From contig JAQXNP010000077.1 in assembly GCA_029098065.1 (NCBI GenBank), positions 1 to 17,408 of the forward strand: 17,408 nt of DNA, read 5' to 3'. A model generated the notes under the pieces. It was not told where the DNA came from, searched no databases, and worked only from the letters and a program-made list of their open reading frames with translations. Source of the DNA: Clostridiales bacterium. Lineage in GTDB: Bacteria > Bacillota > Clostridia > Oscillospirales > Oscillospiraceae. This document shows, in pieces, positions 6,705 to 14,751 of the stretch. Made by a program: the position numbers and the translations under genes. The stretch's first letter is position 1; each line of letters starts with the position of its first letter.

Positions 6705-9700
6705 ATGCTCAAGCTGCTCTTGGGCCGGGCCGGAACCGGTAAGACCAATGGGATCCTCCGGGCCATTGCGGACTCCCGGGGTATCCGCCCGCAGCTCCTC
6801 ATCGTGCCGGAGCAGCACTCCCACGATGCCGAGCGCAGGCTGTGCGCCGCGGCGGGCAATTCGGTGAGCCTTTACGCCGAGGTGCTGTCTTTTACCCGCC
6901 TGGCCAACCGGGTCTGTTCCGTCACAGGCGGTCTGGCCGCCCCGGCGCTGGACGGAGGCGGGCGGCTGCTGCTGATGGATGTGGCCCTGAAATCGGTCTC
7001 CGATCAGCTGAAGCTCTATGCCCGGCCCTCCCGGAAGCCCCAGTTCCTCGCCCAGCTGGCCGCCACGGTGGACGAGTGCAAGGCGGCCGGCATCACTCCG
7101 GAGAAGCTGTTTGAGCTCTCCCGGGCGGCGGCGGGGGAGACGGGGGACAAATTCCACGACCTGTCCCTCATCTGCGGCGCCTATGACGCGCTGACCGCCC
7201 AAAGGGGGATGGACCCCCGGGACCGGCTTACCCGTTTGGCCGAGGGGCTGGAGCTGAGCCGCTGGGCGGAGGGGATGGATATCTATCTGGACAGCTTCAC
7301 CGACTTCACCGCCCAGGAGCGGGGCGTGCTGGAACAGCTTCTGGAGCAGGCCCGCTCGGTCACCGTGGCGCTGACCTGCGACAGCCTGACGGGGGAGGAG
7401 GACGACGTTTTCGCCCCTGCCCGGCGGACGGCCCGGAAGCTGATGGATCTGGCCCGCCGGAAAGGCGTGGACGCCCGGGCGGAGGTTCTCCCGCCGCCGG
7501 GGGGGATGGGGGCGGCGGGGCACAGACTGTTTGAGCCCTTCTGGCCGCCCTTCCGCGCCGGAGAAGGGCTGGAGCTGTATCGGGCCCCCTCTCCCTACGC
7601 AGAAGTGGAGCGGACGGCGGCGGAGCTTCTCCGCCTGGCCCGGGAGGGGGGATACCGCTGGCGGGAGATGGCGGTCACCGCCCGGAGCATGGAGGTATAC
7701 GGTCCCCTTATCTCGCTCATTTTCCCCCGGTACGGGGTACCCGTTTTTCTGGCCCGTATGGATGACATCCTGCAAAAACCCATTCTCGCTCTGGTGGTCT
7801 CCGCTCTGGACACGGTGGCGGGAGACTATGCCTACGAGGACGTGTTCCGCTACCTCAAGACCGGCCTGACCGGGCTGACTCATGACGAGGTGGACCTGCT
7901 GGAGAATTATGTGCTGAAGTGGAATCTCCGGGGGCGGAACTGGACCCAGAAGGCCCCCTGGACCTTCCATCCGGAGGGCTATGGCCGGCCCTGGACCGAT
8001 CGGGACCGGGAGCGGGTGGCCAGGCTGGACGGCCTGCGCCGCCGGGTGTCCGAGCCGCTGGAGCTGCTGCGGAAGGCGGAGAGCCGTACCGGGGCGGGAC
8101 TTGCCCTGGCCCTCTATGCCTTCCTGGAGCGGATCGGTCTGGCCCGGCGCCTTTCCGATCGCGCGGAGGAACTGCGGGCGGACGGGGAGGCGGAACTGGC
8201 CGCCGAGTATGAACAGCTCTGGGAGATCCTGTGCTCCGCTCTGGAGCAGTGCGCCGGTCTGCTGGGGGAGGTCCCCATGGAGTGGGAGGAGTTTGCCCGG
8301 CTGTTCCGGCTGGTGCTCTCCCAGTACCATGTGGGGACCATTCCCGTGTCGCTGGACCAGGTCACGGCGGGGGAGATGCCCCGGCTGGCCCATAAGCACT
8401 GCAAGGTGCTGTTTCTTCTGGGGGCGGATGACGGGAGCTTGCCCGCCGCCGTGCCCTCCCCCGGACTGCTGGCCGACGCTGACCGGGCGGTGCTGGCGTC
8501 CTTCGGGCTGGAGAGCGCCCCGCGGCTCACCGACAAGCTGTGGCGGGAGATGACCATCGTCTATGAGACCTGTTCCCTGCCCACGGAGCGGCTGAGCGTG
8601 AGCTGGCCCGCTGCCGGGACAGCGGGGGAGGAGAAGCGGCCTTCTTTCCTGGTGAAGCGGCTCCGGGAGGCATTTCCCGGGCTGCCGGTCCTGGATGGGG
8701 GGGCGATGGGAGACAGCTTCCGGCTGACGGCCCCCGGACCCGCTCTGGAGCTGGCGGGACGGTATCCCGGGGCGGAGGCGGCGCTGCGGAATATCCCGGA
8801 GTACCGCCCTGTGATGGAGCGGATGGACCGGGCCCGGACGCTGGAGCGGGGGCGCCTCACCCGGGCATCGGTGGAGGCGCTGTACGGCGGACGGGTGCCC
8901 ATGTCCGCCTCCCGGATGGATCAGTTCCAATCCTGCCATTTTTCCTATTTTATGGAGTACGGCCTGCGGGCCAAGGCCCGGAAGAGCGCCGGGTTTCAGG
9001 CTCCGGAATACGGCACCTTTGTCCATTACGTTCTGGAACATGTGCTCCGGGAGAGACAGGGAGAGGAGATCCCCACCCGGGCACAGGTTTCGGCGGTGGT
9101 GGAGCGGTATGTCCGGGAGGAGCTGGGCGGTCTGGAGAAGGAGACGCCCCGGTTCCGATATCTCTTCCGGCGGCTGGAGCGGTCGGTCTACGCCGTGGTG
9201 GAGAACGTGTGTCAGGAGCTGGCCCGGTCCGACTTTGAGCCGGTGGCCTTTGAGCTGGGGTTCGGCGCCAATCAGGATCTGCCCCCGGTGGAGCTGACCG
9301 TGGACGGCCTTACCGTGTCGGTGTCCGGCTTTGTGGACCGGGTGGACGGCTGGGTGAAGGACGACAAACTCTACCTGAGGGTAGTGGACTACAAGACCGG
9401 CAGGAAGGCTTTCGACCTCACCGACGTCTGGAACGGCCTGGGACTCCAGATGCTGCTGTACCTGTTTACCCTGAAGGACAAGGGGAAAGCCCTGTTCGGC
9501 CGGGAGATTCTGCCCGCCGGGGTGTTGTATCTGCCCGCCCGGGACGCCGTCATTGCCGGGAGCCGCTCCATGAGCGAGGAGCAGCGGCAGAGAGAAGTGG
9601 ACAGCGAGCTGCGGCGAAAGGGCCTGGTGCTGGATGATGAGGCGGTCCTCGCCGCCATGGAACACACTGAAGAGGGGCAGTCCCCCCGGTTTTTGCCGGT

Positions 9701-10016
9701 GAAGCTCAGCAAAGCCGGAGCCTTTACCGGGGAGGCCCTGGTGTCCGCCCAGCGGCTGGGCCGGCTGGAACGGCACACCGAGCAGATCCTTCAGGATATC
9801 GCCGGAGAACTGGCGGCGGGGAATATCGCCGCCGATCCCTTCTGGCGGGGGCCGGAGCACAACGCCTGCCGGTGGTGCGATTATGCCGCCGCCTGCCAGT
9901 TCCGGGAGGGTGTGGGCGGCGACCGCCGCCGGTGGCAGCCGAAAGTGAAAGCCAAGGAGTTCTGGGAGACACTGGAGCGGGAAGAGGGGCCGGAAGATCC
10001 GGCCGTCCCGGGATAG
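6705..10016 (+). CDS. addB: ATP-dependent helicase/nuclease AddB
   Basis: The 1103-residue protein is the AddB subunit of the AddAB enzyme, the Firmicute counterpart of RecBCD, which resects double-strand breaks and responds to Chi. It starts with MLKLLLGRAGTGKTN, a Walker A-like motif (7-14). The C-terminal RecB-type nuclease domain shows H774 (FVHYVLEH), D878 (GFVDRVDG), D895 and K897 in VVDYKTG, and LQMLLYLF. The iron-sulfur cluster that clamps this domain is supplied by C744 (FQSCHFSYF) and the triplet C1055, C1058, C1064 (CRWCDYAAAC). All AddB hallmarks are present and length is normal (about 1100-1170). AAAGGAG lies well placed before the start. It ends in TAG, with the amidohydrolase gene 60 nt further on and addA after that. 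Confidence 0.96.
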   Translation: MLKLLLGRAGTGKTNGILRAIADSRGIRPQLLIVPEQHSHDAERRLCAAAGNSVSLYAEVLSFTRLANRVCSVTGGLAAPALDGGGRLLLMDVALKSVSDQLKLYARPSRKPQFLAQLAATVDECKAAGITPEKLFELSRAAAGETGDKFHDLSLICGAYDALTAQRGMDPRDRLTRLAEGLELSRWAEGMDIYLDSFTDFTAQERGVLEQLLEQARSVTVALTCDSLTGEEDDVFAPARRTARKLMDLARRKGVDARAEVLPPPGGMGAAGHRLFEPFWPPFRAGEGLELYRAPSPYAEVERTAAELLRLAREGGYRWREMAVTARSMEVYGPLISLIFPRYGVPVFLARMDDILQKPILALVVSALDTVAGDYAYEDVFRYLKTGLTGLTHDEVDLLENYVLKWNLRGRNWTQKAPWTFHPEGYGRPWTDRDRERVARLDGLRRRVSEPLELLRKAESRTGAGLALALYAFLERIGLARRLSDRAEELRADGEAELAAEYEQLWEILCSALEQCAGLLGEVPMEWEEFARLFRLVLSQYHVGTIPVSLDQVTAGEMPRLAHKHCKVLFLLGADDGSLPAAVPSPGLLADADRAVLASFGLESAPRLTDKLWREMTIVYETCSLPTERLSVSWPAAGTAGEEKRPSFLVKRLREAFPGLPVLDGGAMGDSFRLTAPGPALELAGRYPGAEAALRNIPEYRPVMERMDRARTLERGRLTRASVEALYGGRVPMSASRMDQFQSCHFSYFMEYGLRAKARKSAGFQAPEYGTFVHYVLEHVLRERQGEEIPTRAQVSAVVERYVREELGGLEKETPRFRYLFRRLERSVYAVVENVCQELARSDFEPVAFELGFGANQDLPPVELTVDGLTVSVSGFVDRVDGWVKDDKLYLRVVDYKTGRKAFDLTDVWNGLGLQMLLYLFTLKDKGKALFGREILPAGVLYLPARDAVIAGSRSMSEEQRQREVDSELRRKGLVLDDEAVLAAMEHTEEGQSPRFLPVKLSKAGAFTGEALVSAQRLGRLERHTEQILQDIAGELAAGNIAADPFWRGPEHNACRWCDYAAACQFREGVGGDRRRWQPKVKAKEFWETLEREEGPEDPAVPG

Positions 10017-10076: not shown

Positions 10077-11165
10077 ATGTTCACATCCGATTGTACCGCA
10101 CTGAAGCTGACCTCCGCCTCCGGGCGGCCCTACTGGTTTCGCACCTGCGACATCGGCGGGAATATCTGGGCCGATGGAGCCCATGTGGTCTCATTCCCGG
10201 CGGGGGCGGAGGTCACCCTGGCCCGGCGGGAGACGCCGCTGAAGGTCAAACACGCCCTGGTCGGAATGACGGACAACAGCCTGGACACCTGGCTGCTGGA
10301 CGGCGTCAACGACGCCGGAATGGTGGGCGGGCTGCTGGCCCTCTATGAGGCTGTCAGCGCGGACCGCTCCGATCCCGGTTTTGAGGGGATTGTGGGCATG
10401 GAGATGATCACCGCCCTGCTGGCTACCTGCGGCTCCGTGGCCGAGGTGGTGGAGGCGGCCCGGCGGGTGCAGGTGCTGAGCATCCCCACGCCCGACGGCA
10501 GAGTAAACTGCACCATGCACTATATGTTCACCGACCCCACCGGGGCCTGTGTCATTTTGGAGGCCGCCGATCCGGAGCGGCCGGGAATGCTCACCATCTA
10601 TCAGGAGAATCTCGGTATGATGACCAACTCTCCCCCGTACCCTGAGCAGCTCCGGAATCTGGCCTGGTATCTGTCCCAGTCTCCCGAACTGCGCTTCGGC
10701 GTGGAGGGAAAGCGCATCGACTCCATCACGCTGAACGGCATGACGGTGCAGGGGGATGACGCCGCCCCCCACTTTACCCGGACCGACGCCTTCCCCGGCT
10801 CTTACGCCGCCTGTGACCGGTTCATCCGGACGGCGGTGCTCAGCTGCCTCAACAGGGAGGGGAAGGACATCTCCGACGAGCAGATGCTCCCTCTGGGCAG
10901 CAATCTGATGAGCGCCGTCTTTGAGCCTCACAATCAGGGGGTGTACCACTATATCCGGCTGGATGAACAGGACGCGCCGGTTGGGCAGCATGAGAGCTAT
11001 ACTCAGTATCTGGTGATGTACGATCTGACTCAGAGGGCCCTCTATCTCCGGCCCTACGACACCACCGCCTGGACCAGAATCACGCTGGCCGGGTGCTCGG
11101 ACACTGAGATCCAGCGCCATCCCGTGTGTCGGGAGGCCCTGGGCGGTGTGATCAGGAACAACTGA
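10077..11165 (+). CDS. Ntn-hydrolase, choloylglycine hydrolase/linear amide C-N hydrolase family
   Basis: The 362-residue protein is a cysteine Ntn-hydrolase related to bile salt hydrolase and penicillin V acylase, which cleave linear amide bonds. The likely nucleophile is C6, which must be exposed by removing a five-residue leader (MFTSD). R22 and D25 in WFRTCDIG stand at +16 and +19 from it, the same spacing as C2, R18, D21 in characterised enzymes. Further matches are N78 (DGVNDAGM), N184 (MTNSPPYPEQL) and the DRFIR motif (247-251). No signal peptide, so cytoplasmic. A strong AGGAGG (10061-10066) precedes the start. The substrate cannot be read from the sequence: bile salt, penicillin, acyl-homoserine lactone or acyl-amino acid hydrolysis are all possible. 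It lies between addB and addA in the same direction and probably shares their transcript. Confidence 0.88.
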   Translation: MFTSDCTALKLTSASGRPYWFRTCDIGGNIWADGAHVVSFPAGAEVTLARRETPLKVKHALVGMTDNSLDTWLLDGVNDAGMVGGLLALYEAVSADRSDPGFEGIVGMEMITALLATCGSVAEVVEAARRVQVLSIPTPDGRVNCTMHYMFTDPTGACVILEAADPERPGMLTIYQENLGMMTNSPPYPEQLRNLAWYLSQSPELRFGVEGKRIDSITLNGMTVQGDDAAPHFTRTDAFPGSYAACDRFIRTAVLSCLNREGKDISDEQMLPLGSNLMSAVFEPHNQGVYHYIRLDEQDAPVGQHESYTQYLVMYDLTQRALYLRPYDTTAWTRITLAGCSDTEIQRHPVCREALGGVIRNN

Positions 11166-11184: not shown

Positions 11185-14100
11185 ATGGCCGTCCAGCTCA
11201 CAAGAGAACAACAGGCGGCAGTGGAGAACCGGGGCGGCGGACTTCTGGTGTCAGCCGCCGCGGGGTAGGGCAAGACACGGGTCCTGGTGGAGCGGCTGCT
11301 GAACCGGGTGGAGGCCGGGGCGGATATCGACCGTTTTCTGGTCATCACCTATACCAAGGCCGCTGCCGCCGAGCTGCGGGGCCGGGTGGTGGCCGAGCTG
11401 GCCGACCGGGCGGCGGCCCGGCCGGGGGACGCCTTCCTCCGGCGGCAGACCACTCTGGTCTATCAGGCCCAGATCTCCACTATCGACGCCTTCTGCGCCC
11501 AGTTCCTGCGGGAGGAGGGCTACCGGCTGGAGCTGGACCCGGATTTCCGCCTGAGTGATGAGAATGAGGCGCAGATGCTCATGGAGGATGTCCTGCAGGA
11601 GGTGCTGGAACAGCGGTATGAGACCATCGAGCCGGGGGGAGACTTTGCCTTTCTGGTGGACACCATGTCCGCCGGGCGGGACGATTCCCGGCTTATGCAG
11701 ATCGTGCTGGACATCCGGGGCCGGATCCAGAGCCACCCGGATCCGGCGGCCTGGCTGGACCGGCAGGAGCGCTCCTTCGCGCTGGAGGGCGTGACCGACG
11801 CCGGGGCCACCCCCTGGGGCGCGCTGCTGCTGGAGGATGCCCGGCGGCAGGCCGATTACTGGGCGGAACGGATGGAGGAGCTGCTGGATCTGGCCGGCGG
11901 GGATGACAAGCTGCGGGAGTGCTACGCCCCCAGCCTGGAAGTCACGCGGCGGGAGCTCCTGGATCTGTCACGGGCCGCCGGGGAGGGCTGGGACGCCGCG
12001 GCCCTGTGTGCCGAGATCGATTTTCCCAGGCTGAAGACGGTGCGGAACTGCGGGGACCCCGCCGCGCAGGAGCGGATCAAGACCCTGCGGGATCACTGCA
12101 AGAAGCGGATGGGAAAGCTGGCGGAGCTGTTTTCCGACGACAGCGCCGGGCTTCTGGCCGACATGCGGGCGGTGTATCCCGCCATTCGGGGGCTCTTCGC
12201 CCTGGTGCGGGACTTCGAGGCGGCCTATACGGCGGAAAAAAACCGCCGGGGCGTGCTGGACTTTTCCGATCTGGAGCACATGACAGCCAGACTGCTGACC
12301 GGGGCGGATGGCAGGCCCACTGAGATCGCCCTCCGGTGGGGAGAGCGGTTCGACGAGGTGATGGTGGACGAGTATCAGGACACCAACGCCGTCCAGAACA
12401 CCATTTTCGACGCCCTGACCCGGGGCGGGCGGAACCTCTTCATGGTGGGGGACGTGAAGCAGTCCATCTACCGGTTCCGGCTGGCGGACCCCACCATTTT
12501 CCTCTCCAAGTACCGCAGCTACCGGCCCTGGGATGAGGCGGCGGAGGGGGAGCCCAGGCGGGTGCTCCTCTCCCGGAATTTCCGCTCCCGGCCCCAGGTG
12601 CTGGAGGGCTGCAATGATTTCTTCCGCAGCGTGATGAGTGAGACCTTCGGCGAGATGGATTACACCAGTGCCGAGGCGCTGATTCCCGGCGGGACCTTCC
12701 ACCCGGGGCGGGAGGAGGACTACCGGGTGGAACTGAACGCGCTGGACTGCTCGGCGGGGAGCGATGACGGCGGGGAGAAAGCGCCCCGGGATCTGTTGGA
12801 GGCCCGGTTCGCCGCCCGGCGGATCCGTAGAATGCTGGATGAGGGCTTCCCGGTCTCTGATGGAGAGGGGGGACTCCGACCGGTGCGGCCGGGAGACATC
12901 GTCATTCTGCTCCGGTCTCCGGGAACGGTGCTCCGCCACTACGCCGGGGCTCTGGGAGAGCTGGATGTGCCGTGGACGGCGGAGGGGGCGGAGGACTTTT
13001 TCGGCGCCGCCGAGATCCAGGTGGCCCTCTCCCTGCTGCGCATTGTGGACAATCCCCGGCAGGACGTGCCTCTCATCGCCGTGCTGCGGTCGGCGGTGTA
13101 CGCCTTTTCCGCCGACCGTCTGGCGGAGATCCGGGCCGCCGCGCCCGGGGAGGACTTCTATACCGCCCTGAGGGCCGACGAAGGGGAGGACTCCCGGGCC
13201 TTTTTGAGCGAGCTGGACGCCCTGCGCCGGCAGGCGGAGGACGAGAGCTGCGATCAATTCCTCTGGCAGCTCTATGACCGGACCAATCTGCTGGGCATCT
13301 ACGGGGCCATGGACGAAGGGGAAAAGCGGCGGGGCAATCTGCTGACCCTGGCCCGCCTGGCCCGGGAATTTGAGTCGTCGGGACACAAGGGGCTGTTCGG
13401 TTTCCTGCGCAGCCTGCAGCGGCTGGAGGAGTCGGGGCGGCTGACGCTGTCCGGCGCTGTGGGCAGCGAGGGCGGCGTGAGGATCATGAGTATTCACAAG
13501 TCCAAAGGACTGGAATTCCCGGTGGTGCTGCTCTGCGGCCTGGCCCGGCAGCTCAATCGGACAGACCTTCAGAGGCCGATCCTGTTCCATCCGGATCTGG
13601 GCGTGGGCCCCAAGCGGCTGGATCTGGATCGGATGGTGGAGTACCCCACTCTGGCCCGGATGGCAGTGGCCCGGCAGATGGACCGGGAACTGGCGGCGGA
13701 GGAGCTGCGGCTTCTCTACGTGGCCATGACCCGGGCCCAGGAGAAGCTCATCCTGACCTGCGCCCTCGCCGGGGGACGGGAGGAGCTGGAGAAGCTGCTG
13801 CCCTTCGCCGGGGCGCCGGTGGAGCCCCAGGCCCTGCTGGACTGCAGAAGTCCCGCCCAGTGGGTGCTGCTCTCCGTGCTGGCCCGGCCAGAGGCGGAAG
13901 CCCTCCGGGGGGGCGGATTCCCGCCTCCCGCGGCGGCGGGGTTTTCTTTCGGCCCGGAGTGGGACCTGCGGTGGGAGGATGCCGCCCCCTATCAGGAGGT
14001 TCCCCGGCGTCCGGCCCCGGCTGCCGGAGAGCGGGAGGCCGGCGGCCCGGACCCGGAGGAGCTGTCCGCCCGGTTCGCCTGGACCTATCCCCACGCCGGG

Positions 14101-14751
14101 GACGTGGACCTGCCCTCCAAGCTCACCGCCACTCAACTAAAGGGCCGGACGCTGGACGATGAGGCGGCGGAGGAGACGCCCCGGCCCGCCCGGCCGTTCC
14201 GGTTCGACCGCCCTCGCTTTGCCGCCGGGAAGCTGGGCCTGACTCCGGCCCAGAAGGGCACCGCCCTCCATCTGGTGATGCAGTACATCGACTTTGACCG
14301 CTGCGGCAGCAGGGAGGGGATTGCCGCCGAGATCGCCCGGCTGGTGGAGGAGGAGTTCCTCACCAAAGAGCAGGGGGAGGCGGTGGACCCGGCCAGGATC
14401 TGCGCCTTCTTTGCCTCTGATCTGGGGCGGGAGGTGCGGTCTGCCCCCACCCTCCGACGGGAGTTCAAGTTCTCCATCCTGGTCCCTGCCGGCCGGTATT
14501 ATTCCCGGGCGGGGGCGGGAGAACAGGTGCTCCTTCAGGGCGTGGTGGACTGCTTTTTTGAGACGGAAGAGGGTCTGACGGTGGTGGACTTCAAGACGGA
14601 TCGGGTGAGGGGAGAGGCCCTCCTGGCCCGGGCGGAGGAATACCGGCCCCAGATCACCGCTTATGCCCAGGCCCTGACGGAGATCACCGGCCGGCCGGCG
14701 GCGCGCCGGGTGCTGTGGTTCTTTTCCGAGGATCGGGCGGTGGAACTCTGA
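11185..14751 (+). pseudogene. addA: ATP-dependent helicase/nuclease AddA, interrupted by an in-frame TAG in Walker A
   Basis: The frame encodes AddA, the UvrD-like helicase and nuclease partner of AddB, over 1188 codons (family about 1200). It opens with MAVQLTREQQAAVEN, a good start with AAAGGGGG (11169-11176) upstream. Codon 28 is TAG, exactly where AAAG-S-GKT needs serine; a single C-to-A change from TCG would produce it. Everything after is intact: DEYQDTN (395-401), VGDVKQSIYRFR (421-432), IMSIHKSKGLEF (767-778), LLYVAMTRA (843-851), and nuclease residues H1029, D1122, D1135, K1137 (VVDFKTD). The normal product would be a 27-residue peptide. Restart at the GTG at 11287 would give 1154 residues without Walker A and so no helicase motor. 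A recent nonsense mutation or a sequence error is most likely; suppression is possible but unsupported. Confidence 0.9.
11266..11268 (+). other. In-frame amber codon inside addA Walker A motif
   Basis: The codons around it read GCC GCC GCG GGG TAG GGC AAG ACA, that is A-A-A-G-stop-G-K-T. The serine expected at this position is invariant or nearly so in AddA Walker A (GSGKT). Downstream context is G, a base of intermediate leakiness for UAG readthrough. Confidence 0.95.

Follow-up and report, generated by a model that had tools for sequence, protein, structure and literature searches.

The addA gene of this Clostridiales bacterium, encoding subunit A of the helicase-nuclease AddAB, carries an in-frame amber codon inside its Walker A motif, and the remainder of the gene is intact and under normal selection. 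We lean towards the reading that an ordinary addA was hit very recently by one substitution that created the amber stop at codon 28, in which case the cell would lack an ATP-driven AddA motor while AddB would still be encoded. The amber codon amounts to an isolated lesion or an artefact in one draft genome, not to a decoding system, and is ordinary.

The window (the whole stretch of 17,408 nucleotides analyzed here) constitutes contig C77 of G000, a draft genome of 1.71 Mb in 221 contigs that is 89.7% complete and 2.6% contaminated and was probably assembled from a metagenome. Among named organisms it matches Pseudoflavonifractor sp. Marseille-P3106 best (78% at the protein level) and, judged by its nearest relatives, the window groups with Pseudoflavonifractor-like Oscillospiraceae.

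The addA frame and its neighborhood

The addA reading frame spans positions 11185..14751 of the forward strand. It starts with an ATG at 11185 and is broken at codon 28 by a TAG (11266..11268, forward strand; 11267 is its A), at a residue that is serine in nearly all relatives. The translation reads MAVQLTREQQAAVENRGGGLLVSAAAG before the stop and GKTRVLVERLLN after it, placing the amber codon in the context AAAG-stop-GKT, within the Walker A motif, just where the original prediction had located it. Exactly two stops lie in frame between 11185 and 14751, the internal and the terminal one, and the 1160 codons that were said to follow the TAG without a break are indeed all sense codons. The claim that the helicase and nuclease parts are kept was likewise upheld: the post-stop portion alone reached 847.6 bits against the AddA model TIGR02785 (cut-off 707.65), a score that rose to 896.3 bits when the search read through the stop, and the domains UvrD-helicase (PF00580), UvrD_C (PF13361) and PDDEXK_1 (PF12705) were all found above their cut-offs in it. 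The uninterrupted Walker A motif expected of an AddA of the TIGR02785 family is missing from this gene owing to the TAG at codon 28; with exactly one disabling lesion and no relaxed selection, addA has the features of a recent nonsense allele.

Mechanical gene calls place the start of a truncated AddA at the CTG and GTG codons at 11284..11289 (forward strand), giving predicted products of 1155 or 1154 amino acids without Walker A. The nearest downstream GTG is at 11287 and the first in-frame ATG past the stop is at 11575. The entry for this AddA in the protein collection has 1155 residues and begins past the Walker A motif.

We extracted the addAB locus from 15 relatives, 13 of the same genus and two of the same family. 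Since the AddA frame is open in all 15 (in G008 as far as the contig end) and the proteins are 63-78% identical to that of the window, addA reads as a genuine gene and not as a chance open frame. In its length, its domains, the addB-before-addA order and its identity to these relatives, it resembles the AddA of Gram-positive AddAB systems (TIGR02785), from which it differs by the amber codon inside Walker A.

The addB gene (6705..10016, forward strand) is complete, as originally predicted: it is a full, intact frame with ADDB_N and PDDEXK_1 domains, though the score of its product, 694.3, falls short of the AddB equivalog cut-off of 903.7. Between addB and addA lies a choloylglycine-hydrolase-family gene (10077..11165, forward strand; PF02275 match). 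The cargo of this slot varies among relatives. Judged by the likeness of the first residues, a choloylglycine-hydrolase-family gene also occupies it in G002, G003, G005, G006 and G012, other frames are found there in G007, G008, G001 and G036, and the slot measures just 4-190 bases in G009, G010, G011, G013, G015 and G033. At the start of the contig, positions 2-346 are the final part of a transposase gene with an integrase core (rve), and a tRNA-Ala(CGC) lies nearby at 488-563 on the minus strand.

The Walker A residue among relatives and the age of the lesion

A motif scan of 111 loci, pooled from several searches and not de-duplicated, found the Walker A motif 100 times (11 loci yielded none). 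The two TAG cases among these 100 were both the window itself, and the site in the other 98 matches was occupied by serine in 95, by alanine in three and by a stop in none. Serine was also present in the motif of 234 of 240 AddA proteins (the best 120 of each of two protein searches); the remaining six were the window's own protein, one with AAAGSGKN and four in which residues 1-160 do not show the motif. As anticipated for sister genomes, all 15 extracted relatives encode serine at this position, with the codons TCG (10), TCC (2), TCA (2) and TCT (1). The commonest of these, TCG, is one substitution away from TAG, the change that had been proposed.

A search of the family with the AddA model gave a match in 144 of 150 genomes, and among the matches listed that of the window was the only one with an internal stop. 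All 96 genomes of the family with completeness of 90% or more and contamination of 5% or less had an AddA match, so a real addA null should be rare. A probable single addA lesion of another type was seen in G175, where AddA lies in two adjoining pieces in different frames (contig C74:3421-6043), a split that suggests a frameshift; thus, single lesions in addA are rare yet not unheard of in such drafts.

The dN/dS on the branch leading to the window, measured against G009 and G010, was 0.293 for addA (95% 0.235-0.361) and 0.266 for addB (95% 0.208-0.340), and the addA values for G009 and G010 themselves were 0.235 and 0.297, respectively. Of 392 columns that do not vary among the 15 relatives, five are changed in the window, namely those of the stop, H113Y, A406T, I595V and L1157I, and leave-one-out counts of such changes for the relatives ranged from 2 to 22. 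Neutral evolution of addA over the full length of the branch would predict 33.6 additional stops and roughly 317 amino-acid replacements at invariant codons; we observed no additional internal stop and four non-stop changes at invariant positions. The lack of further stops limits the neutral share of the branch to less than 0.089, and the four changes (95% Poisson limit 9.15) limit it to less than about 0.03. Apart from its stop, addA is therefore under normal selection. From a dN/dS near that of addB, together with only four of 392 invariant positions changed, it follows that the lesion would date from the last few percent of the lineage or else not be real, and that addA would have been functional until very recently, if it is not so still. 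The view that addA is an old pseudogene in a lineage that lost AddAB long ago has the stop itself as its only support; it is hardly credible in the face of a full-length alignment in one frame with no additional internal stop and of the selection and invariant-site figures just given, which bear out the argument originally raised against it.

Origin of the amber codon

Two accounts of the TAG were retained, as had been proposed from the outset: a young null allele, which we favor, and an error of base calling or assembly, or a strain-mixed consensus, in the draft, under which the addA of the organism would be ordinary. The division between them is a matter of judgement and not of measurement, and we regard the error as a serious, if somewhat less probable, contender. 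It is in keeping with a probably metagenome-assembled draft of this many contigs and this completeness, and with the absence of decay in addA. Furthermore, addA is not the sole case of an isolated stop in this assembly. A TAA at L159:9444 (contig C37; also covered by locus L143) interrupts a potA-like ABC ATPase gene, at an otherwise readable position that is a tyrosine codon, TAC, in G010. Downstream of this stop the gene matches models of spermidine/putrescine ABC ATPases, with scores under the whole-protein cut-offs as expected of a fragment, and the stop was the only one among the ABC matches listed over 16 genomes of the genus; in domain surveys of G000, a stop was found in 1 of 67 ABC, 0 of 25 permease and 0 of 9 aminotransferase matches. 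This second nonsense codon would fit a raised consensus error rate, as would the finding that none of the 19 candidates for in-frame stops that the survey gave in G009 and G010 (360 kb) was judged real by eye. However, in 394 kb of G000 (window included) the final detector of in-frame stops flagged 29 candidates, and only that in potA was judged real by eye, which argues that the error rate is not high. The detector recovered 1120 of 1345 (83%) stops placed randomly in called frames, the first 30 codons of each frame being exempt; the addA stop itself escapes it, so early stops are under-counted. The other 28 candidates were taken by eye as boundaries of neighboring genes in one frame or as chance. 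The potA contig was sampled because it had already been flagged in the ABC listing, so the stop count is biased. An earlier survey of 237 kb of G000 flagged seven places, potA included, and a variant that passes over stops closely followed by an ATG flagged five and missed potA. Also against an error, addB lacks an error signature: the protein collection holds an AddB 99% identical to that of the window, from a 4717-base contig, and all eight differences in 1103 positions fall at variable columns. As both its sequence and its contig differ, we take this AddB to be probably from another strain. No other AddA of this species appeared among the best 120 matches of a full-AddA protein search, nor among the best 120 of a search that used an N-terminal part of 360 residues and covered proteins of about 198-630 residues (top identity 81%). 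The potA-like stop would fit a moderate rate of consensus error and also ordinary young nonsense alleles. Both stops are possible C-to-A changes, but a pair of cases cannot establish a mutation bias. Recent nonsense alleles and draft consensus errors share with the window an isolated stop in a gene otherwise under purifying selection and a second such stop in the assembly, with no difference in the evidence at hand.

A further account, that the UAG is read through by means of a suppressor tRNA, pyrrolysine or a programmed context to give low amounts of full-length AddA, seems to us improbable and gained no support from the data, on a tRNA list that is incomplete. The window does share with programmed read-through and UAG recoding a frame that stays open and conserved past the stop. 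The base after the UAG is G and not the +4U that has been reported to lower read-through (PMC5289835). Suppression would moreover be cheap here, TAG being a normal if rare terminator in this genome: it terminates 9 of the 200 called genes whose stop was identified in 237 kb of G000, and for G009 and G010 (360 kb) the figure is 13 of 274. Unlike recoded genes, however, the window has a stop that is shared by no relative examined (neither in the 98 other motif matches nor in the family matches listed), and both RF1 and RF2 are present in the genome, above their model cut-offs and free of internal stops. ARAGORN recognized 26 tRNAs in 20 loci covering 27 Rfam tRNA matches, none with a stop anticodon, in a draft from which several isotypes are missing; a scan of sampled stretches of the genome also gave no stop-reading tRNA, the set being incomplete, so that a suppressor could sit in the unassembled part. 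Matches to PylS reached 25.4 and 19.2 bits, far under the cut-off of 178.15, and the fold of the 100 bases after the stop was unremarkable (z = -1.16, a value matched by 25 of 200 shuffled sequences). The potA-like stop is a UAA, and an amber suppressor does not read UAA. Less probable still is a regulatory version of this idea, in which inefficient decoding of the amber P-loop codon, through near-cognate misreading or a tRNA that escaped detection, would let termination efficiency set the level of the AddA motor and hence of DNA-end resection.

On the minus strand of contig C158 of G000, a weak tRNA match of 33.5 bits was seen (L204:4141-4217; locus L138) that ARAGORN does not recognize as a tRNA; on visual inspection the 3' half corresponds to a tRNA-Ala(GGC) and the 5' half is disrupted, and another tRNA-Ala(GGC) lies 2.6 kb away.

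Consequences of losing the AddA motor

Under the favored young null allele, one base substitution would have turned the serine codon of an ordinary addA into the amber TAG. Translation would then end after 27 residues, or restart downstream of Walker A, and the cell would make no ATP-driven AddA motor, with AddB remaining encoded. The B. subtilis AddAB is described as having a single helicase motor, located in AddA (PMC4824097, PMC4027173). We infer that the base at 11267 is real and the product inactive: neither a 27-residue peptide nor a protein restarted past Walker A should bind ATP normally, and therefore DNA-end resection by AddAB should be lost.

If the stop is instead an error, it illustrates how one draft base can strip the helicase motor from an annotation, as in the 1155-residue AddA entry. 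If it is real, the window holds a naturally occurring null allele of a DNA-break-repair motor retained by the family, and the strain carrying it should be deficient in repair and perhaps short-lived.
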